From assembly GCF_900107645.1 (NCBI RefSeq), contig NZ_FNQN01000004.1, positions 248,001-312,000 of the forward strand: 64,000 nucleotides of DNA, written 5' to 3'. Of the stretch, positions 19,831 to 46,490 are shown piece after piece. The notes beneath the pieces are model-generated. The model had not been told where the DNA came from. It worked only from the letters and a program-made list of their open reading frames with translations, and did no database searches. Positions within the stretch are counted from its first letter, which is position 1, and every line of letters starts with the position of its first letter. The DNA is from Desulfuromusa kysingii. Lineage in GTDB: Bacteria; Desulfobacterota; Desulfuromonadia; Desulfuromonadales; Geopsychrobacteraceae. Made by a program: the position numbers and the translations under genes.

Positions 19831-19884
19831 AATACATTCTCCTTTTTTGTCTAGCTTTTGATTGTTAACATCACCGGGAAAGAG

Positions 19885-19900
19885 AGAGGCCGTAACCTCT
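19885..19900 (-). other. Intercistronic hairpin between the two BMC-H genes
   Basis: AGAGG and CCTCT pair around a 6-base loop at the end of the first BMC-H gene. No T-tract follows, so it is more likely an mRNA-stabilising or processing structure than a terminator. The leader to the next gene is 68 bp, unusually long in this operon. Confidence 0.3.
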
Positions 19901-20183: not shown

Positions 20184-20239
20184 TGTTGACTCCTTCAGCA
20201 ATTAAGCAGATTAAAAAATAACTTCCGATAAACCTATAT

Positions 20240-21685: not shown

Positions 21686-21690
21686 TGTAT

Positions 21691-22227: not shown

Positions 22228-22228
22228 T

Positions 22229-22882
22229 TCAATATGCCTTTGGTTTATCTGCAACCGCTTGAACCGCTTCAGCAAAAGCTTCACATGCAGCCATGCAAGA
22301 GGCTTGGCTGCCACTCAAAAGGCCTCCGCCAAAGTTGGTTTCTGAAGGCGGTGAAAAAAATTCCGCCATATTAACATCTGCCGCTTTTAGAGCCGCATCC
22401 AAAGCAAAGATTGATTCAATCGGCGGCGCAATCAAATAAGCCAACGACGTCCCCTCTTCAACACCAGCTATCTTGGATAGATAAGATCCGGAGCGCGACA
22501 CACAGTGAGCATAATAGGCGATAGAATCATCTTCATTAGCACTGATAAAGGCTGCGTCATTTTCAATAAAACTGACCGCAGCATTCACCCCACTATGGAC
22601 TTCCGCCGGGGTTGATCCAGCAAGAATACCGATAAATTCTCCAGCCAATTTGGTATTGGCATTGGCGGCTCCAGCATAGAACGATTTGGCATAAGCCACC
22701 TCAACCTGTGCCTTCTTCGTCGCTTCATCCAGAGCAGTGTAACCAACATCATCACAATCAACCGTCAATAGGCCCAGACTACTCTGGTCTTTATTCAGCC
22801 CGAATTGTGCAGCCATAGCTGGTGTCACCTTGGAGATTATCCTGATACTTAAAACTGTGGCGCGGAGGGCATCACCCTTCAT
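22229..22882 (-). CDS. eutL: EutL trimeric BMC shell protein
   Basis: A 217-residue BMC-T protein of the EutL type, a gated trimer in which two permuted BMC domains line a large closable pore; in other species it binds ethanolamine and B12. LGLLTVDCDDVGYTALDEATKKA, YAKSFYAGAAN and the closing GGGLLSGSQASCMAACEAF are strongly conserved EutL features. Length matches E. coli EutL (219). GAGAGGATAACGACG precedes the ATG. Confidence 0.96.
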   Translation of the reverse strand: MKGDALRATVLSIRIISKVTPAMAAQFGLNKDQSSLGLLTVDCDDVGYTALDEATKKAQVEVAYAKSFYAGAANANTKLAGEFIGILAGSTPAEVHSGVNAAVSFIENDAAFISANEDDSIAYYAHCVSRSGSYLSKIAGVEEGTSLAYLIAPPIESIFALDAALKAADVNMAEFFSPPSETNFGGGLLSGSQASCMAACEAFAEAVQAVADKPKAY

Positions 22883-22900: not shown

Positions 22901-23764
22901 TTACTTTTTCAGATCTAGACCACTCGTCTTTTGATCTAGCATTTTCTTTACCACATCAGCGATATGTGCCCCAGCCTCAACTCCGGGAATACCACCCCGG
23001 TGAATATTGGAGATAACCGTCCGATTAGCTTCAGGCATACCGACAGACGCGTTATAAGCCATATAACAACTCATACTTTCAGCTGTCGCTAATCCGGGTC
23101 TTTCGCCAATCAAAACGACGGTAACTTCCGGCCGCAATATTTGAGAAACAACATCCATCGCGGGGACTCGCCCATAGCGTAGAAAAAATGGCTTCCCGAC
23201 CTTGATACCATATCCTTCCAATCCTTGAGCCAAGGCCAAAAAAGTATCTTTGGCATTTTTTTCTACAGCCGTCGAGCTTAACCCATCTGAGATATATACC
23301 TGCACCTTTGCCTGCTCTGAACAGTACTCCCTTAGCGCTTCAGCATTCTCGTCATCCAGTTGTCGCCCCAGATCAGGGCGGGTCAAAAATTGATCCTTAT
23401 CAGAGCATTTAGTCTTCACTTCAAGAAGACCCCATTCTTTAACAAATTCTTCAGGAACATCATTAAAGACAGCATCCTGAGCGATCGCATGATCGGCACG
23501 GAAACGCAATGAAGGCTTGGTCAGATATCGGGGTCCGGTACGCCAGATACCGATGCGCGATGCTGTTGCCCCTTTGAACTTCAAATAGGCTTCTCGGTTA
23601 GATGGGTCGGGAACCAGCAGCTGTTTTCTTAAATTTTCGCTTGTCAGATCAGCCTGGGGTTCTTCTGCCGTTGAACTCAGGGGTACAGTTTTCAAAGAAG
23701 GATTCTCAGTTTGCCCCATCTCTCTGAGAACATCCGCAATCAGTTGTTTAATATTAGCTTCCAT
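22901..23764 (-). CDS. eutC: Ethanolamine ammonia-lyase small subunit
   Basis: A 287-residue small subunit that together with EutB binds adenosylcobalamin and splits ethanolamine to acetaldehyde and ammonia. TASRIGIWRTGPRYLTKPSLRFRADHAIAQDAV, YISDGLSSTAVE and LIGERPGLATAESMSCYMAY are conserved EutC blocks. The first 17 residues (MEANIKQLIADVLREMG) are a targeting-type amphipathic helix. The ATG at 23764 is chosen; GTG codons a few bases upstream and a start at 23815 inside eutB are alternatives. Confidence 0.95.
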   Translation of the reverse strand: MEANIKQLIADVLREMGQTENPSLKTVPLSSTAEEPQADLTSENLRKQLLVPDPSNREAYLKFKGATASRIGIWRTGPRYLTKPSLRFRADHAIAQDAVFNDVPEEFVKEWGLLEVKTKCSDKDQFLTRPDLGRQLDDENAEALREYCSEQAKVQVYISDGLSSTAVEKNAKDTFLALAQGLEGYGIKVGKPFFLRYGRVPAMDVVSQILRPEVTVVLIGERPGLATAESMSCYMAYNASVGMPEANRTVISNIHRGGIPGVEAGAHIADVVKKMLDQKTSGLDLKK

Positions 23765-23789
23765 ATCTACCACGATTCCTTCCCCAATT

Positions 23790-25157
23790 TTATCCTTTGA
23801 AAAACAGTGATGCATCGCCGGCGATTTGGCTCAGTCGTCCATTTTCATAGATGCCCATTTTTTCCAGCCAACACTCAAATTCCGGAATCGGTCTCTTAGT
23901 GAGAAGTTCCCTCAAGGCTGCTGCCTCATGATAGCCGAGGGATTGATAATTGAGCATGATATCGTCACCCTGCGGAACAGTGATCAGATAATTACAACCA
24001 GCTGTTCCCAGCAGAACCGCCAAGTTTTCAATATCATTCTGATCCGCTTTCATATGATTGGTATAGCAAGCATCAACACCCATTGAAATTCCGGTCAATT
24101 TCCCCATAAAGAGATCTTCAAGCCCGGCACGAATGACCTGTTTACTGTCATAGAGGTACTCAGGACCAATGAATCCCACCACAGTATTCACCAGGAAAGG
24201 ATCAAAATGTTTAGCAAATCCATAACACCGCGCTTCCATTGTCACCTGATCAACATCGTGGTGGGCATCAGATGAGAGTTCAGCACCCTGTCCGGTTTCA
24301 AAATACATCACATTTGGGCCAGTCGCTGTCCCTTGTTTGAGCATCAGATCTTTGGCTTCTAAGAGCATGGCGGCATTAAGGCCAAAAGCAGTGTTACCCT
24401 TCTCACTCCCGGCGATACTTTGGAAGATCATATCGGCTGGCGCACCTTTTTTAACCGCCTCCATCTGCGTGGTAACATGCCCCAATACACAATTCTGGGT
24501 CGGTATCTGATAGGTCTCTTTAATCTCCTGGAACATGTGCAGGATGTTGGACAACGACTCAACGGTATCATTAACAGGGTTCAAACCGATCAGAGCATCA
24601 CCGGCTCCGTAACTTAACCCCTCAAAAGTGGAAATTCTGATACCATCGAGATCATCGGTAGTGTGATTTGGCTGGAGTCGGAACGCAAGCACCCCAGACT
24701 CCCCGATAGTGGTATTACAATGAGCACAAATATTGATCTTGCTCGCCGCATAGATCAGATCCAGATTAGTCATCAGTTTGGCGACGGCAGCCACCATTTC
24801 AGAGGTCAGCCCCCTGGAAATCCGGATAATATCTTCACCATAAGTCTTGTGACTCAGCAACCATTCCCTGAATTCCGCAACGGTAAAAGATTTGATTTCT
24901 GCATAGATCTTTTCATTGACGGCGTCCTGATCAAGACGAGTCACTTCATCAATTTCATAAGCAACCGTCGGATTATTTCTCAAGTCCGCTAAGGTTAAAT
25001 CGGAAAGCACCTCTTTGGCAGCAACCATTTCAGCAACAGTAGCAGCTGCAAGGCCAGCCAAACGATCACCAGACTTCTCCTCATTGGCTTTCGCCAGCAC
25101 CTCTTTAAGGTCCTTGAATTCGTACACGATTCCGGACAGTACCGTTTTCAATTTCAT
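23790..25157 (-). CDS. eutB: Ethanolamine ammonia-lyase large subunit
   Basis: A 455-residue catalytic TIM-barrel subunit. SGLTSEMVAAVAKLMTN-like (here RGLTSEMVAAVAKLM), FRLQPNHTTDD, LNPVNDTVES and the ETGQGAELSSDAHH block are hallmark EutB sequences for substrate and cobalamin binding. Length is normal (E. coli 453). The start is ATG at 25157 with GAGGTGAGGAA upstream; the preceding TTG in frame is unlikely. It lies between eutA and eutC as in Salmonella. Confidence 0.97.
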   Translation of the reverse strand: MKLKTVLSGIVYEFKDLKEVLAKANEEKSGDRLAGLAAATVAEMVAAKEVLSDLTLADLRNNPTVAYEIDEVTRLDQDAVNEKIYAEIKSFTVAEFREWLLSHKTYGEDIIRISRGLTSEMVAAVAKLMTNLDLIYAASKINICAHCNTTIGESGVLAFRLQPNHTTDDLDGIRISTFEGLSYGAGDALIGLNPVNDTVESLSNILHMFQEIKETYQIPTQNCVLGHVTTQMEAVKKGAPADMIFQSIAGSEKGNTAFGLNAAMLLEAKDLMLKQGTATGPNVMYFETGQGAELSSDAHHDVDQVTMEARCYGFAKHFDPFLVNTVVGFIGPEYLYDSKQVIRAGLEDLFMGKLTGISMGVDACYTNHMKADQNDIENLAVLLGTAGCNYLITVPQGDDIMLNYQSLGYHEAAALRELLTKRPIPEFECWLEKMGIYENGRLSQIAGDASLFFKG

Positions 25158-25178
25158 CAACGATTCCTCACCTCTGGG

Positions 25179-26615
25179 TTAAGAATTGAAAACCAGCGTT
25201 TTAACAATGACAGGAACAACATTTCCATCCACGAGCTCCCGACCAATATCAATATAGTCACCGTTCTCAACTTTTATCGTATCAATACAGATGACATCCT
25301 TTTTAAAACCCAATTGACTTCGTAATGTTTGCCCCATCACCTTAGCCAGATCTTTTTCTATGATCACAATTAGTGGACAGGTTTTACAAAGGATTCCCTG
25401 CATCCCCTTAATAACTTCACTTGCCAATTCAGTCACATCTGAAAATCCGAGACTATCAGGCCCTTTGAATGCAAGAGCAAGATTTTGCTTTTCCCCCTGA
25501 AGATTGAACCACTGAACTTTGCGGAGTATCGCTTCACCCCATAACCTCAACGGTAATGCTTCATCTTCCGGAGATAATTTGAGCACCGGGATGTTCTGCA
25601 TCGGCAAGACTCCGGGTGAAACAGAGATAGTACTACCACTAATACCAGTCGTATGTGACCCTGCCCCAACAACCGTGGCCCGAATCGTCTCAACAGAAGG
25701 CAGAATTTCAAACTGCTGAGTAATTTTTGAACGGGTAATTGCTTGGCCAAGAGCAATTCCGATATCGCCATAGCGAAAATAATCACCACTACTTGAACCT
25801 TGAATACAGTCAGCAACTCCTCCTGAAAATGACACATAATCAATTGGATAATCACGCCTCAGATCATGATCGGTCAGCATTGTTGCCAATTGCGGGGTAA
25901 CAGGAACAAGCCCTAGAACCTCCTCCAGAATACCTGCCATGCGCATAGTGATAGCTTCGATCGTCCCCGTACTCAAAGTTTGATTCTCGGCAACCGATAA
26001 ATCCATAGAACGGGTTAGACTGCGCATTTTATCAGCGATATAGCTGATTGTTCCTCGTTCATTCTGGAACCGTATCAAACGCCCGCCAATATCAAGGCAA
26101 GCCGTATCTATCACCTCTCCATTTCTAAATACGGCGATATTGGTTGTCCCACCGCCGATATCCAGATTAACGACTGTTGCGCCCCGATGCTTTGATTCTT
26201 GGCAGGCCCCCGCCCCTTTCCCAGCGATAATACCTTCCAATGTTGGACCCGCCGTAGCCACTACAAATTCACCGGCCAGACCACTCAACGCACGTAAAAC
26301 AGTTTCAGCATTTTGTTTTCTCGCAGCTTCGCCTGTAATAATGACTGCCCCGGTTTGTACCTGTTCCGGTCTGATTCCGGCAGAGTGATATTCTTGTTCA
26401 ATCAGCTGTCGGATTTTATTTTCATCTATTTCTTGCTGTGATTTTAGTGGAGTAAAGTGGATTGCACTTCTAAACACCACTTCTTTAGCAATAATTTCTA
26501 TCCGCGGTACCGATATCAGAGAGGCAGTATTCTCCAAAGTCAGTTGACTGAACACTAACTGGCTCGTTGTCGTCCCGATATCTATTCCAACGCTGAGAAT
26601 TTGTTCTTTCACCAA
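25179..26615 (-). CDS. eutA: EutA, reactivating factor for ethanolamine ammonia-lyase
   Basis: A 478-residue ASKHA-type ATPase that exchanges damaged cobalamin from Eut[17 protein letters not shown] near the N-terminus and [14 protein letters not shown] are the phosphate-binding loops, and [24 protein letters not shown] and [16 protein letters not shown] match EutA. It is the first gene after the internal leader that carries the second predicted ANTAR element, so its expression is probably gated by EutV. Confidence 0.95.
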
Positions 26616-26664: not shown

Positions 26665-26713
26665 AAAAAAAGCCTGAAATCGCATAATACAATAAAAATG
26701 CAAGCTCAGGCTT
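26665..26713 (-). terminator. Intrinsic terminator in the eutW-eutA intergenic leader
   Basis: On the minus strand AAGCCTGA (26713-26706) pairs with TCAGGCTT (26677-26670), followed by a run of T. It lies 50 bp before eutA and within the operon, so it must be read through for ammonia-lyase expression. Its 5' arm overlaps the predicted second ANTAR hairpin, making the two folds mutually exclusive. Confidence 0.75.
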
Positions 26714-26741
26714 CAACGCCATACTCGCACACGCCGTTGTG
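26709..26741 (-). promoter_or_regulatory. Predicted EutV (ANTAR) RNA element upstream of eutA
   Basis: The first hairpin (26741-26728) has a CACA/UGUG stem with hexaloop ACGGCG, with A at position 1 and G at position 4 as known ANTAR targets require. A second hairpin (26720-26709) has a GGC/GCC stem with loop GUUGAA; its position 1 is G and its stem is only 3 bp, so it is weaker. The 3' arm overlaps the terminator. EutV binding here would allow read-through. Confidence 0.6.
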
Positions 26742-26808
26742 TACGAAATTTTTAATTCTCTTCTCTGAGACCTCCATTGAATAATGTAAGTCTCCTGGAA
26801 TCAATCAG

Positions 26809-28260
26809 TCAGATTGCTTCAGCTCCTGACTTGTTTAAAGGGAAGTCAAATAGTACCTTTGTACCACGATGGCTTGATTCAGTTGATAAAGTTCCTTTCA
26901 ACTTTTCGGTTACAATTCTTCGAACAATCAGCAATCCAAGTTTTTCTGAAGAATCTGTATTCAGATCAAAACCAATGCCATCATCAATGATGGAAATATT
27001 AGAGTACATTGCCCCCTTGCAGATCTCAATATCTATCGTTCCTGAGTCTCTTCCGGTAAATGCATACTTCAAACAGTTCTGGGTGATTTCGTTGACAACA
27101 AGCGCAATTGAAGTTGCCGTATCAGAATCGCACAAAAATGTATCCCCTTTAAGATTGATAGAAATTCCCTTGCTGGCAAGAAGACTATGTTGCACGGTAT
27201 TTATCTTAATCTTCCGCAGCATAGTCAAGATATCAACATCATCTTTACAATCTTCGGCCAAGATTTCATGGGTTGCTGCAATACTTAAAACCTGACTGAT
27301 ACTTTCGTTAAATGCGGCTTTCGCAGAATCATCATCAACCCTTCGACATTGAAGCTTTAAGAGGCTTGCTATCGTCTGCAAATTATTCTTAACCCGGTGA
27401 TGTATTTCACTGATGGCAACGGTCTTTAAAACAAGTTCTCTTTCTTTATTTTTTACATCCGTCACATCATTGATAAGCATGACAACACCGGTAAAGTTGT
27501 CATGCTTATTTTTCACATAGGTATATTTAATATGAAAGATATAATTTCCAACTTCAAGATCATTTAGAGTAATCTGCTTCTTTGCAAGGATGTTATCAAA
27601 TTCAACCCCATGAAAGGTCATGTTTGTAAAACTAAGCCCCTGAAGCCGTTCAATATACCCGAGGTCACGATAAATTTTCTCAGCTACCGGATTTGCATAT
27701 GTACAAACTCCAGAATGACTGAATGTCACAATTCCATCAGTAACATGGTATGGGAGGCTGTTGTCTCCGTTACTTGGAAACGTCCTTCGCTCAATTAGCT
27801 GTTCCGTGGTCTGGGTCAAGACAGATAGCTTTTTTTCTGCCCTGACGGTTTCAGTCACATCTTTTTCAGCAATCAGTGCCCCAATAACGACTCCAGACGA
27901 ATTTTTAATCGGTGACACACTTTGACGAACACTTTTATCCTCCTGAGTCACGCCACTCATATCCATTGTCGGCATGCCGATTTCCAAAGTTCTGAGAACA
28001 GCAGGTTCTTTACTTCGGTGGGCAAACTTGCCAACAACCGAGCCTGCATAAAGAGATTTGACTGAATACGGCCGAGCCTGAGCTACCACAACAGCCACAT
28101 CGGGATCTCTGGTACAGCAGTCAATGAAAATATCCGCCCCCATTAATTCAGCTACGCTATCCAGACATTCAGCATTTCTTTTTATTTTCTGAATATCCAC
28201 CTCATTCAGGTCAGAATGCTGCTGGCAAAGGGCCACAAGCATAAGCTCCTCAAACACCAT
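26809..28260 (-). CDS. eutW: EutW, ethanolamine-responsive sensor histidine kinase
   Basis: A 483-residue soluble kinase. An N-terminal GAF-like sensor region (to about 160) is followed by a PAS-type domain (about 165-270) and an HWE/HisKA_2 kinase: HHRVKNNLQTIASLLKLQ holds the phospho-acceptor His, then VNEITQNCLKYAF and DDGIGFDL form the ATPase site. There is no membrane segment. It overlaps eutV by 11 bp and should phosphorylate it on sensing ethanolamine, with or without B12. The same domain plan is known for EutW of Firmicutes. Confidence 0.92.
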   Translation of the reverse strand: MVFEELMLVALCQQHSDLNEVDIQKIKRNAECLDSVAELMGADIFIDCCTRDPDVAVVVAQARPYSVKSLYAGSVVGKFAHRSKEPAVLRTLEIGMPTMDMSGVTQEDKSVRQSVSPIKNSSGVVIGALIAEKDVTETVRAEKKLSVLTQTTEQLIERRTFPSNGDNSLPYHVTDGIVTFSHSGVCTYANPVAEKIYRDLGYIERLQGLSFTNMTFHGVEFDNILAKKQITLNDLEVGNYIFHIKYTYVKNKHDNFTGVVMLINDVTDVKNKERELVLKTVAISEIHHRVKNNLQTIASLLKLQCRRVDDDSAKAAFNESISQVLSIAATHEILAEDCKDDVDILTMLRKIKINTVQHSLLASKGISINLKGDTFLCDSDTATSIALVVNEITQNCLKYAFTGRDSGTIDIEICKGAMYSNISIIDDGIGFDLNTDSSEKLGLLIVRRIVTEKLKGTLSTESSHRGTKVLFDFPLNKSGAEAI

Positions 28261-28822
28261 TCAGCAGGATAGCTTTAGCAATATCTTTCATCGGCCTTCC
28301 TTTATCCATACTGATTTTGCGAATTTTTCTATAAGCATCATCTTCACTGAGCTTGTCCTGAGCCATTAATATTCCTTTGGCCCGTTCAATCAACTTTCTC
28401 CCTTCAAGTTCATCCTGTGCCTTGCGAATGTCTTCTCTCATTCGATTCATCTCCACCCCCTTCGCAATGGCAACTTCTACCATAGGAAGTAGAGAATCTT
28501 CAGATACGGGCTTAACCAAGTAACCTTCAACACCGGCATCTTTAGCTTGGTCGACAAATTCTTTGCCACTGTATGCCGTCAGCAACAGAGTGCTTCCTGC
28601 CAGCTTCTCGTCTTTAATCAGCTTAGCGACCTTCAATCCATCAATCAGTGGCATTTTAATGTCTAAAACAGCCAGATCCGGATGATGCTCCCGACAGAGA
28701 TCCAGAGCATCAAATCCATCTCCAGCCTCTCCGACAACGTCATAACCGGCCCCCATCAAAATCTCATACATGTTAAGGCGCGTTATAGGTTCATCATCAG
28801 CAATGACGATTTTATATGTCAT
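28250..28822 (-). CDS. eutV: EutV, ANTAR-domain antitermination response regulator
   Basis: A 190-residue regulator with a receiver (acidic pair Asp9-Asp10, phospho-acceptor Asp54 in LDIKMPLIDG, Lys in YLVKPVSEDS), a short coiled coil and an ANTAR RNA-binding domain (LIERAKGILMAQDKLSEDDAYRKIRKISMDKGRPMKDIA). Phosphorylated EutV dimers bind paired hairpins and prevent terminator formation. Three candidate target leaders are found in this window. It is coupled to eutP upstream and eutW downstream by 11-bp overlaps. Confidence 0.95.
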   Translation of the reverse strand: MTYKIVIADDEPITRLNMYEILMGAGYDVVGEAGDGFDALDLCREHHPDLAVLDIKMPLIDGLKVAKLIKDEKLAGSTLLLTAYSGKEFVDQAKDAGVEGYLVKPVSEDSLLPMVEVAIAKGVEMNRMREDIRKAQDELEGRKLIERAKGILMAQDKLSEDDAYRKIRKISMDKGRPMKDIAKAILLNGV

Positions 28823-29258
28823 CCATATCCACCTTAGTCAGAGATTCCCTTAATAACTGCAATCCAGTTTTATCGATTGCACTTGTCATGATTATTTCTT
28901 CAGCTCCAGCACGCCTGAGAAACTTTTCAGCTCTTTCAGGATTACTGGATTCCTTATCCACCTTGGTCACTATGCCAAGGATCCTCTTTTTGAACATAGA
29001 TGAAAAATTGGGTGGATATACGCTGTTTATCAATGTTGCATCCTGCACCAAAGCAACAATATTACAACCAACTGAGGTGGTCAGAAGTGCCGGGTAGAGG
29101 CGTCTATTCTCTAAAAACTCCCCAGGAGAGTCGATAAATATCCCACTGAATGTAATCGCTTGGGTTTTTTTGTAAACGATTTTTTGTTCTTGAAAACTCT
29201 GAATCAATGTTGTTTTGCCACATCCAGTCTTGCCAACAAGCATCACTTTATTCATCAA
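28812..29258 (-). CDS. eutP: EutP/PduV-type small GTPase-like protein
   Basis: A 148-residue P-loop protein. Walker A is GKTGCGKTTL, FSGIFIDSPGEFLENRRLY covers the switch region, and TKVDKESS is the guanine-specificity motif. The family is linked to BMC positioning (PduV), and EutP of Salmonella was reported to have acetate kinase activity. It starts 7 bp after eutS and overlaps eutV by 11 bp. Confidence 0.9.
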   Translation of the reverse strand: MMNKVMLVGKTGCGKTTLIQSFQEQKIVYKKTQAITFSGIFIDSPGEFLENRRLYPALLTTSVGCNIVALVQDATLINSVYPPNFSSMFKKRILGIVTKVDKESSNPERAEKFLRRAGAEEIIMTSAIDKTGLQLLRESLTKVDMDDI

Positions 29259-29265: not shown

Positions 29266-29616
29266 CTAAGATCGGGTTATTTCTGTTATAGCAAAATGTA
29301 AAACCGTCTCAAAAACATCAAGCACACTCATAATTGAGGATTCAACACTGGCAACATCACCAACAATGACAACTGCCCCACCAAATCTGTCCAGAAAACC
29401 TATTTCAACATCTGCCGCTTTCGTCGCAACATCAGCCGCGATAATTGCAGCCTCTCCAGGAGTAATCGTCAGAATACCAATAGCTCCAGCAACCTCTTCG
29501 TCAAGACCAAGGCTCTGACAAATCGATTTCTGTGGATTCGCAATCAGATGTGCCAGAGTCAATTGCTTACCTGGTACATACTCTTGAATCATGCGTTGCT
29601 TATCTTCGGACACCAT
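29266..29616 (-). CDS. eutS: EutS, circularly permuted BMC-H shell protein
   Basis: A 116-residue permuted BMC shell protein. [21 protein letters not shown] is the diagnostic N-terminal strand of EutS, followed by [45 protein letters not shown]. EutS hexamers are bent and affect facet edges. The ATG at 29616 is preceded by GTGGAG; a GTG at 29625 is an alternative. It is the first gene of the BMC operon and starts 9 bp after a leader terminator. Confidence 0.95.
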
Positions 29617-29624
29617 GAACTCCA

Positions 29625-29667
29625 CAAAAAAAATGCCTGCAAAAATTATAATAATCTATGCAAGCAT
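29625..29667 (-). terminator. Leader terminator upstream of eutS
   Basis: ATGCTTGC (29667-29660) pairs with GCAGGCAT (29640-29633) on the minus strand with one G-U pair, followed by eight T. It ends right before the eutS ribosome site, so unregulated transcripts would stop before the BMC operon. Its 5' arm overlaps the second predicted ANTAR hairpin. Confidence 0.8.
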
Positions 29668-29700
29668 TCACCGCCTAGGATCATACTTCGTTGCATGACC
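29662..29700 (-). promoter_or_regulatory. Predicted EutV (ANTAR) RNA element upstream of eutS
   Basis: The first hairpin (29700-29678) pairs GGUCAUGC with GUAUGAUCC (one bulge) around hexaloop AACGAA, with A1 and G4 as in known ANTAR targets. The second (29676-29662) pairs AGGC with GCUU around a 7-base loop, so it is less canonical. Its 3' arm is part of the terminator stem. It begins about 4 bases after the predicted transcription start. Confidence 0.65.
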
Positions 29701-29790: not shown

Positions 29791-29828
29791 GCTTTCGCCT
29801 CTGCACAGATACTTACAGAGGCGAAAGC
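29791..29828 (-). terminator. Strong hairpin after TRAP dctP
   Basis: A perfect 13-bp stem (GCTTTCGCCTCTG and its complement) with a 12-base loop lies 9 bp after the dctP stop. An imperfect T-rich stretch follows on the minus strand. It probably ends or protects the TRAP transcript and separates it from the eut operon. Confidence 0.65.
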
Positions 29829-29836: not shown

Positions 29837-30940
29837 TTAGCTGTACCGATACGGAACGCCTGCTTCGTGCATCACTTTTGAATATTCTTTAAAGATATTA
29901 ACAACTTTTGCAGCTCTTGGGCTGATAGAAGACATATCATCCCAGAATTCTTCAGCGTCTTTTACAACTTGATCCCATTCCTCGGTTGGAATAGTCGTCA
30001 ATTCCATTTTCTTACCACCAACACGTAGCTTGGCTTCACCGCCCCAATACCAAACTTGACGGTAATAATGAGAACTATCCATGGATAGCTTAAATAATTC
30101 TTGCAGATGTGGAGGTACTTTCTTCCAGCTCTTACTATTAGCAAAATAAGAACCAAACCATGCACCAGTTACGTTGTTCAGCAAAGCATAGTTGCAGACA
30201 TCGGCCCAGCCAACTTCGTACGCTTCTGTAAAACCACACCATGCTACACCGTCAAGCTCGCCAGTTTGAATTGCAACTTCAATATCATCCCAAGGTAAAG
30301 TGACTGGAACTAACCCATAACGAGATAGGAATTTTCCAGCAGTAGGAACACCAAAAACACGCTTCCCTTTCATGTCAGCAAGACTATTAATCGGATTTTT
30401 TGTGAAAATGTGCAACGGATCCCAAGCTCCTGCTCCAAGCCATTCTACGTTTCTGACTTCATCGTAGGCTTCTTGCCAAATTTCATTTAGCCCATAGTAT
30501 TTAAATAATACGGGAACATCTAAGCTATAACGAGTAGCGAAAGGGAAATATCCACCAAAAACATTTATGTCAACGGGAGAAGCCATAGTTGCATCATCGC
30601 TCTGAACGGCATCAATCATCCCGTTTTGCATCGCACGGAATAGTTCACTGGTAGCAACAAGCTGATCAGCAAAGTAGAGCTCAATCTCCATCTGTCCATG
30701 AGCAGCACGATTGAATGCTTCAATTTGCGGTTGGATAACATGGGCACCCAAAGCAGCCCCTGAATAACTCTGCAGACGCCATTTAATTGGATTAGAAGCA
30801 GAATAGACATAAGGAGCACTGAAAACTGTCGAAGCTGCAACAGCTCCTGTTGTAGCAATACTTGCCTTCTTTATGAAATCTCGACGGCCGTTTTTCTGAT
30901 CTTGAGGCTGGGGCTTAGTTACGATTTTTTCTTCTTTCAT
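29837..30940 (-). CDS. TRAP transporter substrate-binding protein DctP, Tat-exported
   Basis: A 367-residue periplasmic TRAP receptor. A twin-arginine signal (GRRDFIKKASIATTGAVAAS, Arg19-Arg20) precedes the mature domain starting near SASNPIKWRLQSYSGAA. MKGKRVFGVPTAGKFL and DGVAWCGFTEAYEVGWADV are the ligand-pocket blocks; the conserved TRAP arginine region is replaced by a tryptophan-rich pocket, which suggests a ligand that is not a simple carboxylate. It is third in a dctQ-dctM-dctP operon whose leader has a predicted EutV element, so ethanolamine or a related amine is a reasonable candidate. This is an inference. Confidence 0.88.
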   Translation of the reverse strand: MKEEKIVTKPQPQDQKNGRRDFIKKASIATTGAVAASTVFSAPYVYSASNPIKWRLQSYSGAALGAHVIQPQIEAFNRAAHGQMEIELYFADQLVATSELFRAMQNGMIDAVQSDDATMASPVDINVFGGYFPFATRYSLDVPVLFKYYGLNEIWQEAYDEVRNVEWLGAGAWDPLHIFTKNPINSLADMKGKRVFGVPTAGKFLSRYGLVPVTLPWDDIEVAIQTGELDGVAWCGFTEAYEVGWADVCNYALLNNVTGAWFGSYFANSKSWKKVPPHLQELFKLSMDSSHYYRQVWYWGGEAKLRVGGKKMELTTIPTEEWDQVVKDAEEFWDDMSSISPRAAKVVNIFKEYSKVMHEAGVPYRYS

Positions 30941-31009: not shown

Positions 31010-32332
31010 TTATTTTGAATATATATAGTCAGGCAACCACAGAGTAATCTGTGGGAAAATCATTATTAATACCAAAGCAAAAACCATAATCAATACAAAC
31101 GGAATAATAGAGCGGTAGATATCCGGCAATGTGATTTCTTGAGGAGCCATGGCACGCATTAAAAACAAATTGTAGCCAAACGGGGGGGTCATGTAGGCGA
31201 TCTGACAGGTGATTGTGTACAAAACTCCATACCAGATAGGGTTGAACCCAAGAGAAATAATTAATGGCACATAGAGTGGAGCAACAATAACCAGCATGGC
31301 CGTATCGTCCAGAAACATTCCCATGACGATATAAGACAACTGCATCATGACAAGAACCTGCCAAGGGCTTAGTTGCCACTTTGTAATAAATAAAGCCTCA
31401 ATAGCTCTGACTGCACCGATCCCGTCGAAAACAGCCCCGAAAGAAAGCGCTGCAAGGATAACCCACATAAACATACAAGATATTCCGAGGGTTTTTCTGA
31501 CCGACTCCTCGATCACTTTGCGGTTAAAAGAACCCTTGGCTATTGCAGCGATTGTTGCTGCAGTAGCACCAACAGCTGAACTTTCCACCAGGCTGGTAAT
31601 CCCCATCAGAAACAACCCAGTCATAAAGAAGAAGATCAAAAACGGAATAATACCGGCTTTTAATAGCTTTAATTTTTCTCTGAAAGGAATATCCAGTTCT
31701 TCTTCACTGACGGTAGGAGCGAGGTGAGGCTGAAGCTTACATCTAATAACAATGTAAATAGCAAAAAAAGCTGCCATCATTAAGCCAGGAAACACCCCCG
31801 CAAGCCAGAGCCTGCCTACAGGTTGACGAGCAATCATACCATAGAGAACCAGAACCACACTGGGGGGAACCAATATTCCCAAAGAACTACCCGCTTGAAC
31901 AACACCGGTAATCATCGTCTTATCATACCCACGCCTCAACATCTCAGGGAGCGCAATTGTCGCACCTATGGCCATTCCCGCTACACTTAGGCCATTCATA
32001 GCTGATATGACAACCATCAAACCAATCGTGCCAACAGCGAGCCCACCATTTATCCTGCCGAACCAAACGTGGAACATGGTGTAAAGATCATTGGCTATAC
32101 CCGATTCCGAAAGGACATAACCCATATAAACAAATAAGGGCAGAGTTAGCATCGGATACCAGTTAAACAATTTGAATGCCGCGTTAAAAGGCATTTCAAT
32201 CGCACCATTGCCATAGAGCAAAAGAGCAGCAGCGGCAGAAACAAACCCGATCGCGGCAAAAACTCGCTGACCAGTCAACATTAGAAGGAGCATCCCCCCA
32301 AACATTGTCAGGGCGATTAATTCATAACTCAT
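31010..32332 (-). CDS. TRAP transporter large permease subunit DctM
   Basis: A 440-residue integral membrane protein with about 12 hydrophobic segments that moves substrate using a Na+ gradient. MSYELIALTMFGGMLLLMLTGQ, a GLMVVISAMNGLSVAGMAIG segment and VLVPPSVVLVLYGMIARQPVG-like (GILVPPSVVLVLYG) are DctM signatures, as is MFLDDTAMLVIVAPLY. It overlaps dctQ by 4 bp. A 69-bp gap leads to dctP. Confidence 0.92.
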   Translation of the reverse strand: MSYELIALTMFGGMLLLMLTGQRVFAAIGFVSAAAALLLYGNGAIEMPFNAAFKLFNWYPMLTLPLFVYMGYVLSESGIANDLYTMFHVWFGRINGGLAVGTIGLMVVISAMNGLSVAGMAIGATIALPEMLRRGYDKTMITGVVQAGSSLGILVPPSVVLVLYGMIARQPVGRLWLAGVFPGLMMAAFFAIYIVIRCKLQPHLAPTVSEEELDIPFREKLKLLKAGIIPFLIFFFMTGLFLMGITSLVESSAVGATAATIAAIAKGSFNRKVIEESVRKTLGISCMFMWVILAALSFGAVFDGIGAVRAIEALFITKWQLSPWQVLVMMQLSYIVMGMFLDDTAMLVIVAPLYVPLIISLGFNPIWYGVLYTITCQIAYMTPPFGYNLFLMRAMAPQEITLPDIYRSIIPFVLIMVFALVLIMIFPQITLWLPDYIYSK

Positions 32333-32841
32333 GAGATTTTGATTCCTTTAGCTATGGCCAAATCCTTGAAGAAAACTGCTACTGATTCAAGTATCATTAA
32401 GAAAATTCCTGCGACCATGATAATTTTGATGGGGATCATTGAAGGGTTCCATTGAGAAAAGTTTCGCTGGCCATACTCAATCGCGTACATAGTGCTGGAA
32501 ATGGAACCAATGAGAAGAGTAACAAGATAAAAAACCAGAAAAAATGTTGTAATAACATCAACCTTGGCCCGATTTCTCTCTGAAAAGCGTTCATAAATCA
32601 AATCCATCCGCACATGCTCTCTCAAAATCATAGAGTAAGCGCCACCAGCGATATAGTAGGCTGTGATGATAAATTGAGCCATTTCAACGGTCCACGATAG
32701 TGGCATATGCAACACATTTCGCGTCAATGCGCCTAGGAGCAAGACACCTATCATTACAAAGATTAAATACATTACAGCTCGACCAATTTTGATGGAAATA
32801 GCGTCAACATATTTGACGTAAAGAACAATAAACTTTGGCAT
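32329..32841 (-). CDS. TRAP transporter small permease subunit DctQ
   Basis: A 170-residue protein with four membrane helices. RNVLHMPLSWTVEMAQFIITAYYIAGGAYSMILREHVRMDLIYERFSE contains the typical W-x-x-E and HVR-x-D motifs of DctQ. GGAGGAG is a strong ribosome site. It is the first gene of the TRAP operon, behind a leader with hairpins and a terminator. Confidence 0.9.
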   Translation of the reverse strand: MPKFIVLYVKYVDAISIKIGRAVMYLIFVMIGVLLLGALTRNVLHMPLSWTVEMAQFIITAYYIAGGAYSMILREHVRMDLIYERFSERNRAKVDVITTFFLVFYLVTLLIGSISSTMYAIEYGQRNFSQWNPSMIPIKIIMVAGIFLMILESVAVFFKDLAIAKGIKIS

Positions 32842-32891
32842 TACTCCTCCAAATTCAAAAGTTGCACCCGCTGGTAATCAAAATTCAGGAC

Positions 32892-32938
32892 AAAAAAAAT
32901 GCTTGCAGAAAGAAACAAATGTTTCTTCTTACAAGCAT
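32892..32938 (-). terminator. Leader terminator upstream of the TRAP operon
   Basis: ATGCTTG (32938-32932) pairs with CAAGCAT (32905-32899), and GAAAC/GTTTC extends the stem inside; eight T follow on the minus strand. It lies about 50 bp before dctQ. Its 5' arm is shared with the predicted second ANTAR hairpin. Confidence 0.8.
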
Positions 32939-32967
32939 CATTGCTTCGCCACCCGTCGTTGAGCGAC
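32933..32967 (-). promoter_or_regulatory. Predicted EutV (ANTAR) RNA element upstream of the TRAP operon
   Basis: The first hairpin (32967-32948) pairs GUCGCUC with GGGUGGC (7 bp, three G-U) around hexaloop AACGAC. The second (32946-32933) pairs AAGC with GCUU around hexaloop AAUGAU. Both loops have A1 and G4, the two bases known to be needed for ANTAR binding. The second stem and the terminator share the GCUU segment and cannot coexist. This is the most canonical of the three elements in the window. Confidence 0.7.
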
Positions 32968-33239
32968 AATGTACCGATGTTCAGCGTATTATGACATAAC
33001 ACGGTTCTACTTATCTTACAAGAACCATTTCAGACCTTTTTTAACTCATAATTAAGGGATAAACTCACTATCAGCGTGCAAAAAGGTCATCAGTCAATAC
33101 AAAATAAAATCATTAATAAAACCAAAACATCATCTTTGATTGTTCCAGTCACAGGTATTTTAGAGGTAAGTCAAAACATGGATCATAAAGCACTGACAAG
33201 AATAAATCTTGATATGAATCCTTTACAGGATTACACATT

Positions 33240-33439: not shown

Positions 33440-34207
33440 ATGAACCCAGCAAAACGACAATCTGACATTATCAACAGGATAAGGCAAAAAGATTTCGTCA
33501 CCGTAAATGAATTGTCTAAAACTCTAAATATCTCAAAAGAAACAATTCGACGTGATCTGACGGAACTCGCCCGAAAAGGTCTAGTTCAAAAAGTTCACGG
33601 AGGAGCCTCTCTCCCTGCAGTAGCTGGTGAAGGTCCTTTTAGAGAGAGGATGGGAAAGAACGCAGCAGCAAAAATAAAAATAGCTGAAGCTGCTGCAGAA
33701 CTCATTTCCCCAGGAGAAACTATTCTTATTGATACCGGGTCTACGACCTTGTATTTCGCCGAAAAACTAACCTTAATTCCCAAGTTAACAGTCGTAACAA
33801 ATTCAACTCAAATTGCTAAAACAATCAGCTCAGAACCCTCCTATTCCAAAGTATTTCTTCTCGGTGGAGAGTTTTACGGAGACAATCGGCAAACAATCGG
33901 TAGCATTGCAATTGAACAATTGAAATCCTTCCGGGCACATCATGCCATCTTGACAATCGGCGCTCTCGATACCCGCACTGGAATTATGGATTATAGCATA
34001 GAAGAGGCCCAGCTAGCGCGTGCCATGGTTGACCAAGCGGAATCGCTGACAATACTGGTCGACAGCTCCAAATTTAATAAAATTGCATCATTTGAAGTCT
34101 GCAATCTCTCCAGAATAACGAATCTCGTTTGCGATATACCACCGTCAGCAGAATTAAAAACTGAACTGATGAAAGCTAAAATAAATATTATCGTTGCTAA
34201 CCTATGA
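33440..34207 (+). CDS. DeoR-family transcriptional regulator (GlpR-like)
   Basis: A 255-residue repressor. The N-terminal winged helix (RQSDIINRIRQKDFVTVNELSKTLNISKETIRRDLTELARKGLVQKVHGGA) is classic DeoR, and the C-terminal sugar-phosphate isomerase-like domain has DTGSTTLYFAEKL and LGGEFYGDNRQTIGS. It should bind a phosphorylated sugar or polyol. Its neighbours downstream are two oxidoreductases and an FGGY kinase, so it probably controls that polyol pathway. Confidence 0.92.
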   Translation: MNPAKRQSDIINRIRQKDFVTVNELSKTLNISKETIRRDLTELARKGLVQKVHGGASLPAVAGEGPFRERMGKNAAAKIKIAEAAAELISPGETILIDTGSTTLYFAEKLTLIPKLTVVTNSTQIAKTISSEPSYSKVFLLGGEFYGDNRQTIGSIAIEQLKSFRAHHAILTIGALDTRTGIMDYSIEEAQLARAMVDQAESLTILVDSSKFNKIASFEVCNLSRITNLVCDIPPSAELKTELMKAKINIIVANL

Positions 34208-34279
34208 TCTAAACTCCTCCCAATTATTAATGCATTGCAAATCAGACCAATTGATCACAGATTATCAAATCTTTTAGAA

Positions 34280-34306
34280 TTGACTGTTCGGTCACTTCTA
34301 TATACT
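34280..34306 (+). promoter_or_regulatory. Possible promoter close to the FAD oxidoreductase start
   Basis: TTGACT (34280-34285) and TATACT (34301-34306) are spaced 15 bases, short of the usual 17. A start near 34313 would put the ATG at 34315 almost at the 5' end, giving a leaderless or near-leaderless mRNA; no ribosome site is visible upstream of that ATG. Confidence 0.35.
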
Positions 34307-34314
34307 ATTCAGTC

Positions 34315-35745
34315 ATGGATACTCCAAAACATCAAAATAATTTCTCTAGCACAACTCAAATAATCGCCCGCGCCGATGTTGCCATCATTGGAGGAGGAGT
34401 CGTTGGCTGTGCAGTAGCCCGAAAACTCACCCTTGAAGGGGCCTCTATTGTCTTGATAGAGAAAGGAACTGATATTCTTTCCGGTGCAAGCAAAGGGAAT
34501 AGTGCAATACTCCATACCGGTTTTGATGCTCCGATTGGCTCTTTAGAATGGGAGTGTGTTCAAAATGGTTACAATGAGTATTTACAGATCAACAAAAGCC
34601 TCAATCTACCACTCCAAAAAACTGGAGCCCTTATTGCTGCCTGGTCAGAAGAACAAGAAGCAAAGTTCTCTGACATCCTTAAAAAAGGAAAAGATAATAA
34701 CGTCCACGATTTGCAACTCTTGAGCCGCAAGGAGATCCTTGAGCTTGAACCTAATCTTGGCAAGAACATACGTTCAGCCATCGTCGTTCCTCGCGAGTTT
34801 ATCATCGACCCATGGTCAACTCCCCTTGCCTATTTACAACAGGCTCTTGAAAATGGAGGAAAAGCGCTTTTTAATGCTGAGGTTACTGATGGTGAATTCG
34901 ATGGCATGAGTTGGCTTTTGAATACGCAACGTGGTCATGTTAAAGCAACACATGTCATCAATTGTGCCGGTCTCTACGGCGATATTGTCAATAGCAAAGT
35001 CCTAGGCAATTGTGATTTCACAATCAAACCCCGCAAAGGGCAATTTGTTCTCTTTGACAAGGCAGCAAGAAAATTACTTAGTTCTGTCATTTTGCCCGTT
35101 CCGACGGCCAGAACTAAGGGGATTGTTCTTTTTCCAACAATTTTTGGTAACGTTGCTGTTGGTCCAACTGCTGAAGATCAGGATGGAAGAGATGATGCCT
35201 CTGTGGATAAAGAAAATCTTCAAGCTCTTCACAATCAAGCTTTAGAAAAAATACCGGCTCTTGCCAATATCCCAATAACGGCAACTTTTGCAGGAATAAG
35301 ACCAGCAACGGAGAAAAGTGAATATCAAGTCAGCCAGGATCCTGATCGCAACTGGATCACTCTAGGAGGGATCCGATCGACAGGACTAACCTCTTCCCTT
35401 GGGCTCGCCCAGCATGTTCATCAGCTACTCTTACAAAGAGGCACTGAGTTTAAGCCACTGGTGAGCCCTATAGTCCCTTCCGTCCCAAATCTTGCGGAAA
35501 ATCAACCCCGCGATTATGAAACGTCAGGGTACGGCGAAATTGTCTGCCACTGCGAAATGGTAACTGATCGTGAAATCAATGCTGCGATGAAAGGTTCGAT
35601 GCCAGCTGGCAGTATTGCAGGATTGAAGCGGCGCACCAGAGCAACCATGGGACGCTGTCAAGGTTTCTACTGCTCAGCGCGTCTGGCTGAACTCACCAAG
35701 GGAAAATTCGAAGATTCTATTGACGTGGGGAAAGCTGATGTCTGA
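34315..35745 (+). CDS. GlpA-like FAD-dependent oxidoreductase with [2Fe-2S] domain
   Basis: A 476-residue flavoprotein. DVAIIGGGVVGCAVARKL is the FAD Rossmann motif, KGNSAILHTGFDAPIGSLE and GIRPATEKSEYQ match the glycerol-3-phosphate dehydrogenase/oxidase (DAO) family, and the C-terminus has a BFD-type cluster (VCHCEMVTDREI ... TMGRCQGFYCSARLAEL). It should oxidise a polyol phosphate and pass electrons on. It overlaps the next FAD protein by 8 bp. No ribosome site precedes the start. Confidence 0.87.
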   Translation: MDTPKHQNNFSSTTQIIARADVAIIGGGVVGCAVARKLTLEGASIVLIEKGTDILSGASKGNSAILHTGFDAPIGSLEWECVQNGYNEYLQINKSLNLPLQKTGALIAAWSEEQEAKFSDILKKGKDNNVHDLQLLSRKEILELEPNLGKNIRSAIVVPREFIIDPWSTPLAYLQQALENGGKALFNAEVTDGEFDGMSWLLNTQRGHVKATHVINCAGLYGDIVNSKVLGNCDFTIKPRKGQFVLFDKAARKLLSSVILPVPTARTKGIVLFPTIFGNVAVGPTAEDQDGRDDASVDKENLQALHNQALEKIPALANIPITATFAGIRPATEKSEYQVSQDPDRNWITLGGIRSTGLTSSLGLAQHVHQLLLQRGTEFKPLVSPIVPSVPNLAENQPRDYETSGYGEIVCHCEMVTDREINAAMKGSMPAGSIAGLKRRTRATMGRCQGFYCSARLAELTKGKFEDSIDVGKADV

Positions 35746-36766
35746 CCCTTTAAACGGTAATAATTATGATGTTGTCATAATAGGGGCGGGACCAGCAGGT
35801 CTATCTGCAGCACTAACTCTTAAAAAATCTGGGATTGAATCCGTTTTGGTGGTCGATCGCGACTCAGAGGCAGGGGGAGCCCCCCGCCATTGCGGTCATC
35901 CACCTTTCGGTATCCGAGAATATAAACGGATCATGACTGGCCCTTCATTTGCAAAAAGGTTGGTCCAATCCGCACGCGACAACAGTATCAAAATCGCACT
36001 AAAAACAACCGTAACAATGTTGCAGCCAGCTGGTAACATTACAGTCAGTTCACCTGAAGGGATGGGAAAAATTACCGCCAAGCGCGTACTCATTGCTACC
36101 GGTATCCGCGAAACCCCAAGATCTTCTCGATTGGTTTCAGGAGACAGACCACTTGGAATTTGCACCACAGGTACGCTTCAATCAATGTATTACCTGAAAA
36201 AGTTAATACCGTTTCGATATCCCGTTATCGTGGGAACTGAAATCGTTAGTTTTTCTGCCCTCTCAACCTGCAAAAAGGCAGGGATAAAGCCTGTTGCAAT
36301 GCTTGAAGAGAATCAACGCCCTACTCTTCGCTGGCCACTTTATTATGCAGCGCAAGCATTTGGCGTTCCCCTATTATTGCAGACTCAAATCGTCAAAATC
36401 ATTGGAGACCCTCGTGTAAGAGCTGTCTACGTGGCCGAAAACAAAGGGAACATTCGTGAAATTGCCTGCGATGGGGTTCTATTCAGCGGTCAATTTACTC
36501 CTGAATCAACTCTGGCTCGAATGAGCCATCTTGATCTTGACTATGCCACCAACAGTCCAATTGTTGATCAATTTGGGCGTTGTACAGACCCAACTTATTA
36601 TGCCGCCGGAAATGTTCTCCAGCACGCGACAGGAAAGAAAGCTCCAATCTACTATAATCCTAGCAACCTTCCACAACCTGTTGATGTTGCAGGTAAATGT
36701 TGGGATGAAGGCCAAATCACTGCCCAGTGGATAGTTCAGGATTTAGCTGGTAATCTTCCCCAGTAG
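35738..36766 (+). CDS. FAD/NAD-binding oxidoreductase partner
   Basis: A 342-residue pyridine nucleotide-disulfide-type flavoprotein. YDVVIIGAGPAGLSAALTLKKSG is the FAD motif; GGAPRHCGHPPFGIREY and IATGIRETPRSSRLVSGDRP resemble the small FAD subunit found beside GlpA-like proteins with BFD domains. The ATG at 35738 with TGGGGAAA is preferred over 35720. It probably forms a complex with the upstream protein. Its exact role is not known. Confidence 0.82.
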   Translation: MSDPLNGNNYDVVIIGAGPAGLSAALTLKKSGIESVLVVDRDSEAGGAPRHCGHPPFGIREYKRIMTGPSFAKRLVQSARDNSIKIALKTTVTMLQPAGNITVSSPEGMGKITAKRVLIATGIRETPRSSRLVSGDRPLGICTTGTLQSMYYLKKLIPFRYPVIVGTEIVSFSALSTCKKAGIKPVAMLEENQRPTLRWPLYYAAQAFGVPLLLQTQIVKIIGDPRVRAVYVAENKGNIREIACDGVLFSGQFTPESTLARMSHLDLDYATNSPIVDQFGRCTDPTYYAAGNVLQHATGKKAPIYYNPSNLPQPVDVAGKCWDEGQITAQWIVQDLAGNLPQ

Positions 36767-36909
36767 ACCGTCAAACTTCATAAGAACCTACTGCAACTAC
36801 GTAACCACAGACAGCAATCTGATTTTGACTTTTATGCAGATAAAATGGCAATAAAAGAGCATCCATAAATATATTAAAAACCAGCTTATATAGAAAATAG
36901 GAAAATGTG

Positions 36910-38331
36910 ATGTCCATACTCGCAATTGACCAAGGAACAACCAGCACCCACGCTTTATTAGTTGGCAGCTCTGGAATTCAAACGACTGCAAAAACTTTAG
37001 AGCACCAGCAATTCTACCCAAAAGCAGGTTGGGTTGAACACGACCCTGAAGAATTGATTCAAAATATTCGGTGCTGCATTGACAGCTGTGATGATATACA
37101 AGCTATCGGCATCGCCAACCAGGGAGAAAGTTGTCTGGCTTGGGATGCCGATTCAAAACGTGCTATCTCTCCTATCATTGTCTGGCAAGACAATCGCACC
37201 CAGCTTACAATAGATAAGCTAAAATCTGAAAAGCAACAACAACGTGTCCTGGAATTATCGGGATTACCGTTAGACACCTATTTTTCTGCTACCAAGCTGA
37301 GATGGATTATAGACAATATTCCTGCAGCAAAAGAGTTACTTCAGCGCGGAAAACTGCGGTTAGGAACTACCGACTCTTTTTTTCTTGATCGTTTCACCGG
37401 CCACTTTGCAACTGACATAAGCACAGCTTCCAGAACATCATTAATGAATCTGCATACAGGCCAATGGGATGAAGAGTTATGTCACATTTTTGGTGTCCCG
37501 ATGGAAGTATTACCCGAGATTGTCAGCACGACAGGTGACTTTGGTGCAGTCGAGTCCAAGGGGAGGGTGATTCCTATCACTGCAAGTATCGTTGACCAAC
37601 AGGCGGCACTATATGGACATGGCTGCATAAATAATGGTGATGCAAAAATAACTTTTGGTACTGGGGCCTTTGCACTAGTTGTCACTGGTGCGACTCCAGA
37701 ACAATCACCAAATCAGGGGTTATTGCCAACTGTAGCCTGGCAATTAAAAGGACAGCCCCCCATATACGCTCTAGACGGTGGCATCTTCTCTGCGGGGTCA
37801 GCAATCAATTGGGCGCGTTCTCTAGGATTATTTCAGGAGTATAGCCAAATTCAACATTTTGAGACAAACAGTGCTATTGAAAGAGACCTTGCTTTCGTTC
37901 CTGCTTTATCAGGTTTGGGTTGTCCTTATTGGGACAGAACTGCTGGTGGTTTATGGATCGGTTTGTCATTACATACTCGAGCAGCGGATTTAGTTCAATC
38001 TATTCTGGAAGGAATTGCTTTCAGAGCAGCTGAAGTCATTAACTCAATGAATGAGTTTGTATCCATCAAAGAGGTGATTTCAATCGATGGTGGACTAGCT
38101 GCAAACCCCTATTTATGCCAGTTTCTGGCTGATGTTCTGAGTCGACAGGTTACCGTTCAATCTTCAACGGAATTAACAGCATATGGAACTGCATGCCTTG
38201 CCGCTGAAGGGGAATTTGAGCCATACCCGATAAAAGACAGTACTAAAAAATATCTGCCTCAAACCAACAGAGATTCTCAGTTACTAAAGTTCCAAACGGC
38301 TGTAAGCAGGGCTGCTGATTGGCGACTCTGA
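36910..38331 (+). CDS. Glycerol-kinase-like FGGY kinase with altered substrate motif
   Basis: A 473-residue FGGY kinase. ILAIDQGTTSTHALLV is the phosphate-binding loop, VDQQAALYGHG holds the catalytic Asp, and FGTGAFALV, GCPYWDRTAGG and IDGGLAANPYLCQFLADVL match glycerol kinase. In GlpK the motif NQRET contacts glycerol through Arg; here it reads NQGES, so the Arg is lost. The substrate may be another short polyol. GTG at 36907 is an alternative start; AGGAAAA lies upstream. It follows the oxidoreductase pair by about 140 bp. Confidence 0.85.
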   Translation: MSILAIDQGTTSTHALLVGSSGIQTTAKTLEHQQFYPKAGWVEHDPEELIQNIRCCIDSCDDIQAIGIANQGESCLAWDADSKRAISPIIVWQDNRTQLTIDKLKSEKQQQRVLELSGLPLDTYFSATKLRWIIDNIPAAKELLQRGKLRLGTTDSFFLDRFTGHFATDISTASRTSLMNLHTGQWDEELCHIFGVPMEVLPEIVSTTGDFGAVESKGRVIPITASIVDQQAALYGHGCINNGDAKITFGTGAFALVVTGATPEQSPNQGLLPTVAWQLKGQPPIYALDGGIFSAGSAINWARSLGLFQEYSQIQHFETNSAIERDLAFVPALSGLGCPYWDRTAGGLWIGLSLHTRAADLVQSILEGIAFRAAEVINSMNEFVSIKEVISIDGGLAANPYLCQFLADVLSRQVTVQSSTELTAYGTACLAAEGEFEPYPIKDSTKKYLPQTNRDSQLLKFQTAVSRAADWRL

Positions 38332-46463: not shown

Positions 46464-46490
46464 TGAATATTTACTCCCAATTGCCAATAG

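Follow-up and report, generated by a model that had tools for sequence, protein, structure and literature searches.

The dctQMP genes of Desulfuromusa kysingii, which encode a TRAP transporter, quite probably form the ethanolamine uptake system of a microcompartment eut operon, with their expression gated by EutV antitermination. The window, i.e., the complete stretch of 64,000 nucleotides that was analyzed, contains on its minus strand a leader, dctQ, dctM, dctP, a second leader, eutS, eutP, eutV, eutW, a third leader, eutA, eutB, eutC, eutL, and further shell and enzyme genes, in this order (Table 1). The Q, M and P subunits are complete, and P is homologous to a known ethanolamine binder. 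EutV-type control of the TRAP operon, which had been claimed in an earlier note on this DNA, is well supported at the sequence level, because three leaders of like build are present, the dctQ leader was recovered in all six genomes with readable upstream DNA, and EutV and EutW are encoded in the same gene string. Ethanolamine as the substrate of DctP is supported, though not proved, by the homology to Csal_0678 and by the gene neighborhoods.

Table 1. Features of the dctQMP-eut region and its surroundings (positions in the window).
Feature	Position	Strand	Basis or remark
First hairpin (P1) of the dctQ leader, hexaloop AACGAC	32948-32967	-	sequence, fold, covariation over 14 leaders
Second hairpin (P2) of the dctQ leader, hexaloop AAUGAU	32934-32945	-	stem varies at one pair, on one side only
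Intrinsic terminator with U run, overlapping the P2 3' arm	32892-32939	-	folding, compensatory changes
dctQ, small TRAP permease	32329-32841	-	Pfam DctQ
dctM, large TRAP permease	31010-32332	-	Pfam DctM, NCBIfam
dctP, TRAP binding protein	29837-30940	-	63% identical to Csal_0678/4UAB
Strong hairpin without U run directly after dctP	29791-29828	-	13-15 bp
Second ANTAR-type leader with terminator, before eutS	29626-29699	-	P1 loop AACGAA; P2 loop GGUGAAU, read as 7 nt
eutS, shell protein	29266-29625	-	
eutP	28812-29258	-	
eutV, presumed antiterminator	28250-28822	-	receiver and ANTAR domain (PF03861)
eutW, sensor kinase	26809-28260	-	GAF_PdtaS/HisKA_2
Third ANTAR-type leader with terminator, before eutA	26665-26745	-	P1 loop AACGGC; P2 loop GUUGAA
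eutA, eutB, eutC	22901-26615	-	
Remaining eut microcompartment genes	13899-22882	-	eutL, shell proteins, eutE, eutT/eutD fusion, eutN, eutQ, pduS-like, two pduT-like
Divergent DeoR, glpA-like, glpB-like and glpK-like genes	33440-38331	+	best NCBIfam scores below curated cut-offs

The first hairpin of the dctQ leader, P1, comprises 7-9 bp and exposes the hexaloop AACGAC at 32960-32955, and the second, P2, has the stem AAGC/GCUU and the hexaloop AAUGAU at 32942-32937. Both loops have an A at position 1 and a G at position 4 (A1 and G4). The terminator extends from 32939 to 32898, is followed by a U run that lies 50 nt upstream of the dctQ ATG on the minus strand, and includes the 3' arm of P2 in its own 5' arm. 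Folding revealed that P2 and the terminator are mutually exclusive, the shared arm being GCUU. The earlier note had described two hairpins with these loops, an arm of the second one shared with a terminator 50 bp before dctQ, and a likeness to known EutV/ANTAR targets. The window letters read exactly so, the shared arm was borne out by sequence and folds, and the layout matches that of the Enterococcus faecalis eut leaders as given in the accessible text of their description (PMC3369931), i.e., two hairpins with A1/G4 hexaloops, of which P2 overlaps an intrinsic terminator and excludes it. The linker between the stems counts 6 nt when 3-bp stems are assumed and 2 nt with the 7-bp P1, the criterion having been 5-12 nt.

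The 76-nt leader RNA was predicted to fold as P1 plus terminator with -30.5 kcal/mol, compared to -11.1 kcal/mol for P1 plus P2 without terminator. The folding of the 88-nt stretch from 32888 to 32975 surpassed all of 200 shuffles (z -4.5), and the portion containing P1 and P2 alone folded unremarkably in comparison with shuffles (z -1.3). A strict motif scan, which required A1/G4 hexaloops, at least 5 bp in P1, at least 3 bp in P2 and the P2 arm within the terminator, recovered the dctQ leader with 15 terminator pairs. The only other match in the 64 kb was at 22655 on the plus strand, opposite eutL, with 7 terminator pairs. In 40 dinucleotide shuffles the motif occurred on average 0.1 times per 64 kb, with a maximum of two.

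Two further leaders, which are not mentioned in the earlier note, were found here upstream of eutS and eutA. Both were missed by the strict scan, and permitting a G at position 1 of the P2 loop recovered the eutA leader only. Their P2 loops start with G, so that among the three the dctQ leader is closest to the canonical form. In E. faecalis, too, a single eut locus contains several leaders and encodes EutV and EutW (PMC3369931). In contrast to the accessible description of that system, the leader in the window precedes TRAP genes, the P2 loops of eutS and eutA start with G, and the eutS loop counts 7 nt. An additional difference is that Rfam gave no match over the window at the gathering score, and thus no known cobalamin riboswitch. 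Near the dctQ leader, Rfam at E<=1 returned just two snoRNA-type chance matches (E 0.57 and 0.9). A simple promoter/terminator scan yielded no excess over shuffles, and the terminators of the leaders are absent from its output.

The degree of conservation was analyzed next to the sequence itself. DctP is 95-96% identical in five of the 13 relatives of the same genus. The dctQ leader was present in all six genomes with readable upstream DNA, namely the window, G003, G005, G006, G010 and L045, the last being the Deltaproteobacteria isolate LH_M62; G013, which has a close DctP, stands outside this count, because its contig ends inside the gene. In G010 the leader was not located in the first 220 bp upstream of dctQ, it was found further upstream. 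No eutA leader was seen within the gap that was read in G005 and G006. In G010 (L175), eutS is preceded by part of a pduS-like gene and not by dctP, and the TRAP genes and their leader are on another contig, which may reflect a rearrangement or an assembly fault.

For P1, an alignment of 14 leaders had 98% of the cells paired and a covariation score of 0.754, and both values were matched by none of 500 shuffles; double changes were found in six of the seven pairs, a number that 11 of the 500 shuffles reached. The P2 stem varies too little for its covariation over the 14 leaders to be informative. In the terminator of the six dctQ leaders five pairs were doubly changed (0/500 shuffles), and P1 plus P2 of these six leaders alone did not stand clearly above the shuffles (38 to 185 of 500 in five measures). 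A1 and G4 are present in the P1 loops of all 14 model leaders and of four leaders found later. The P2 loops of the same 18 leaders, by reading, have a G at position 4 and an A or a G at position 1.

A covariance-model search for the ANTAR leader, which the earlier note had proposed as a check, had a divided outcome. Model R1 was trained on the 14 leaders, including the three of the window, and in the 3.74-Mb genome (27 contigs) it retrieved these three with 36-40 bits, followed by a match of 18.8 bits. As 150 of 904 first-look candidates were scored, a further weak copy of the leader could have been missed. Among 95 loci, some of which end at or inside the TRAP genes, R1 gave 16 matches at E<=5, of which 14 were training sequences (three of them the same DNA present twice, L037 and L044) and two were others of 16 bits; nothing above 17 bits was found in these loci outside genomes with eut microcompartment genes. 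In eight further stretches, four leaders that had not been used for training were detected exactly before eutS or eutA with 27-30 bits (one each in G009 and G002, and two in G010, the dctQ leader of which had been in the training set), together with two additional matches of 9 bits. In contrast, model R3, which was trained on eight eutS and eutA leaders only, recognized the dctQ leader of the window weakly (13.2 bits, E 0.45 in 64 kb, rank 3 of 5), and its genome search, with 150 of 284 candidates scored, does not list it. The case for the dctQ leader thus rests on motif, terminator and conservation rather than on R3.

The weak R3 score and the unremarkable fold of P1 plus P2 without the terminator are what would be expected if the hairpins were nothing more than a constitutive terminator that ends a short transcript from upstream, the A1/G4 pattern having arisen by chance. 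This is hardly credible, given the rarity of the motif in shuffles and its presence in all six readable genomes with changed stem sequence. It is also very improbable that the leader is the target of another ANTAR protein instead of EutV. Such a second protein is encoded in the genome, on a different contig (C8). Only eutS and eutP separate eutV from dctP on the strand that these genes share, and all three strong matches of R1 fall within the dctQMP-eut gene string.

From the leaders, their conservation and the gene context we infer the following course of regulation by EutV. Without inducer the leader RNA would fold as P1 plus terminator, and transcription would stop before dctQ. EutW would sense ethanolamine, as judged from the E. 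faecalis system, in which AdoCbl is also needed, and would phosphorylate EutV. The ANTAR domain of EutV would then bind the two A1/G4 loops and hold P2 closed, so that the terminator is prevented from forming. In the same step, the leaders upstream of eutS and eutA would be opened as well.

The search of DctP against the PDB yielded chain 4uab_A with an E value of 1.9e-139, the next PDB sequence having 5.9e-14, and the fold assigned to DctP is fixed by this match to 4UAB. 4UAB is Csal_0678 with ethanolamine, the amine and hydroxyl of which are held by Glu220 (PMC12410723), and the carboxylate-binding Arg of other TRAP proteins is lacking from Csal_0678 (PMC4646407); where other TRAPs have this Arg, the window DctP and Csal_0678 have a GKRVF segment in common. 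Judged from the length of the signal peptide, Glu220 would be chain position 217. The equivalent of this platform Glu in the window, E239, is present without exception in the 90 sequences that were aligned. EtoX of Phaeobacter MED193 binds ethanolamine at 7.9 uM and is encoded in the operon RpiR-GGAH-V-W-X-GS-ALDH-ADH (PMC10132767). The window resembles these systems (PMC10132767, PMC12410723, PMC4646407) in the Q-M-P order, which is that of MED193, in the 63% identity of DctP and in the retained platform Glu.

The pocket is of a different type, with DPLHIFT, FGVPT and WCGFTEAYEVGW in the window DctP versus DPCHFAT, FTFPT and WSGITEDYTVGW in the crystallized binder. The pocket type of the latter is present in Ruegeria B32 and Marinovum, the proteins of which are 84 and 87% identical to 4UAB and the operons of which have the same order as that of MED193. 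Because the pocket neighbors differ, the window DctP was filed as a member of a sister clade and not as EtoX itself. Further differences from EtoVWX and Csal_0678, as described in the accessible texts, are that the TRAP genes of the window are linked to eutABC and microcompartment genes, not to gamma-glutamylation, and that they are under an RNA leader. Judging from record titles, members of the window-type clade are found in SAR11, Rhodobacterales and SAR324 as well as in bacteria that reduce sulfur or sulfate. Leu176, which replaces the Cys, is presumably at a place that contacts the ligand in SiaP, according to an alignment by eye. Among the best 80 of at least 583 relatives and the window protein itself, it is present in 26 of 28 proteins linked to glp genes only, in 5 of 5 with glp and GS, in 4 of 4 with eut and glp, the window included, and in only 4 of 19 with GS only. 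We know of no measured ligand for this second pocket type, and therefore glycerol or a double specificity has to be considered.

The neighborhoods of homologous TRAP genes were compared at two levels. Among 395 genomes drawn from the phylum, a DctP homologue (E<=1e-40) was found in nine, including its own genome; in five of the other eight P-Q-M lie directly beside eutB and eutC, and in three the stretch that was retrieved showed neither eut nor GS genes. A GTDB scan yielded at least 583 relatives, and the neighborhoods of the best 80 were analyzed. These loci contained glp genes only (28), the GS-type ethanolamine pathway (19), ALDH and ADH (7), glp and GS (5), eutB and glp (3), glp-like genes with ALDH and ADH (1), or none of these (17). 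The labels GS, ALDH, FeADH, NFGAH and RpiR were given by reading representative sequences and agree with the annotated products that were checked. GS-type or eutB ethanolamine genes were thus linked in 27 of the best 80 of at least 583 loci, and microcompartment eut genes in two of them (L044, L045). A glp-type cluster was linked in 37 of these 80, often with DeoR directly upstream of dctQ; the assignment is weak in two loci, resting on a partial match in L049 and on a 35% glpK match in L069. The recurring link suggests a common glycerol/ethanolamine theme.

This link, the divergent glp-type cluster in the window and the Leu176 variant in 26 of 28 glp-only loci among the best 80 could indicate that the substrate of the transporter is glycerol or some other small polyol, taken up to supply the neighboring DeoR-glpA-glpB-glpK-like genes, and that the place of the transporter ahead of the eut genes is secondary. 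Such a role is rather improbable for several reasons. The EutV-type leader precedes dctQ in all six readable genomes, no report of a glycerol TRAP was among the open-licence papers listed, and glycerol uptake in Ruegeria pomeroyi is attributed to an ABC system in the accessible part of the source. In a tree of 90 proteins, members linked to glp and to GS were intermixed, as judged by eye. Loci with both types of genes exist, including L134 and L135; in Chelatococcus eutC-eutB-DeoR face Q-M-P-glpA-glpB-glpK, and in Paracoccus albus glpK-glpB-glpA face DeoR-Q-M-P-GS-ALDH-ADH (the glp genes being named by comparison). For 27 glp-only loci, i.e., the 28 without L049, the genomes encoded EutB in five cases and the GS enzyme in 19 at E<=1e-100, together in 23 of the 27, a count that covers TRAP-bearing genomes from the best 80 of at least 583 relatives. 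Of 24 regions around these enzymes (19 GS, 5 eutB), 22 were devoid of P, Q or M of the TRAP family with more than 30% identity, several of the 24 being cut by contig ends and L144, L152 and L154 having a GS match without adjoining ALDH/ADH. In L153 a type I P of its own lies beside the ethanolamine enzyme gene. In Gemmobacter aestuarii, P lies beside glp (L096), and Q and M without P lie in a gamma-glutamyl-ethanolamine operon (L136). A shared function of the transporters would fit this genome content best. Because of the tree, the mixed loci and the genome content, the glycerol reading of the glp-linked homologues is weakened and ethanolamine is favored.

A transporter that takes up both ethanolamine and glycerol, the two being products of the breakdown of glycerophosphoethanolamine, so that EutV and DeoR regulate one shared importer, is somewhat unlikely; it overlaps with the preferred explanation, which leaves glycerol possible. 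It would fit the loci in which the TRAP genes are flanked by glp-type genes on one side and ethanolamine genes on the other, as in the window, and L148, in which glp-type genes adjoin a GS operon even without TRAP. Yet co-location can reflect a shared source of substrates instead of a shared transporter, and glycerol is not among the ligands named for EtoX in the accessible text of its description. Tentatively, and with the same reserve, it might be imagined that both halves of glycerophosphoethanolamine enter through one TRAP transporter of an uncharacterized clade, situated between a DeoR glycerol cluster and an EutV-antiterminated ethanolamine microcompartment, and that RNA antitermination couples uptake to the assembly of the organelle.

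With regard to ethanolamine uptake, the preferred function of dctQMP, the other known importers were searched for. EutH was found neither in the complete genome, as the earlier note had stated for this DNA, nor in 59 relatives, and a search with TIGR00908 retrieved no Eat in the genome. The importers named in the accessible texts of a eut review and of a comparative study are EutH, Eat and a predicted EatA of the ChrA type (PMC5821096, PMC6620236); EutH and Eat would have the same presumed task as the TRAP system and belong to other protein families. The congener G002, rated 100% complete, has eutB and no close DctP, and therefore not all eut operons in the genus depend on the TRAP transporter.

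That the TRAP system may be the ethanolamine importer of the regulon, as had been proposed, is thus backed by the homology to Csal_0678 and the neighborhoods, with the reservation that DctP, the pocket of which is changed, is a member of a sister clade and that glp genes are linked as well. The further proposal of a new transporter class for eut was overstated, because ethanolamine TRAPs have been published (Csal_0678/4UAB, EtoX of MED193). The nearest precedent found is in a related organism, Pelobacter carbinolicus, for which periplasmic binding proteins and membrane proteins beside a fused eutBC were proposed to take up ethanolamine or choline (PMC3543383); this binding-protein uptake is similar to that of the window by description only. 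In Bilophila and Desulfovibrio a TRAP-like choline transporter is predicted beside the choline TMA-lyase (PMC6620236), likewise a TRAP system with a microcompartment amine pathway, but the pathway is that of choline, and the accessible text mentions no EutV leader. In the accessible part of a genome paper on Desulfitobacterium, dctPQM systems figure solely as transporters of dicarboxylates, and the word TRAP is absent from the main text of the BMC locus taxonomy. Among the open-licence papers listed, supplements aside, none was found that reports a TRAP transporter as part of a eut operon controlled by EutV or encoding a microcompartment. The new element therefore seems to be an Eto-type TRAP transporter in a microcompartment eut operon under EutV antitermination.

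If this is true, microcompartment eut systems under EutV control would have an importer that relies on a binding protein and could be better suited to a free-living bacterium than diffusion or EutH, and EutV regulons would extend to TRAP transporters. In addition, the comparison draws attention to a large clade of binding proteins of TRAP systems with a clear ligand pair, ethanolamine and glycerol.

Several additional features of the region were observed. The hairpin directly after dctP was retained with changed sequence in four relatives, and it may determine how much transcription reads through into eutS, or shield the end of the mRNA. In the ORF 18179-19546 (minus strand), an EutT-like adenosyltransferase stretch is joined to an EutD/PduL-type phosphotransacylase stretch, and the ORF is similar over its length in G003 and G006. 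Another large TRAP permease is encoded at 45177-46487 on the minus strand, near aminotransferase and amidohydrolase genes. Between about 6197 and 12863, on the minus strand, the order and look of the ORFs, by reading, suggest a phosphonate C-P lyase operon.
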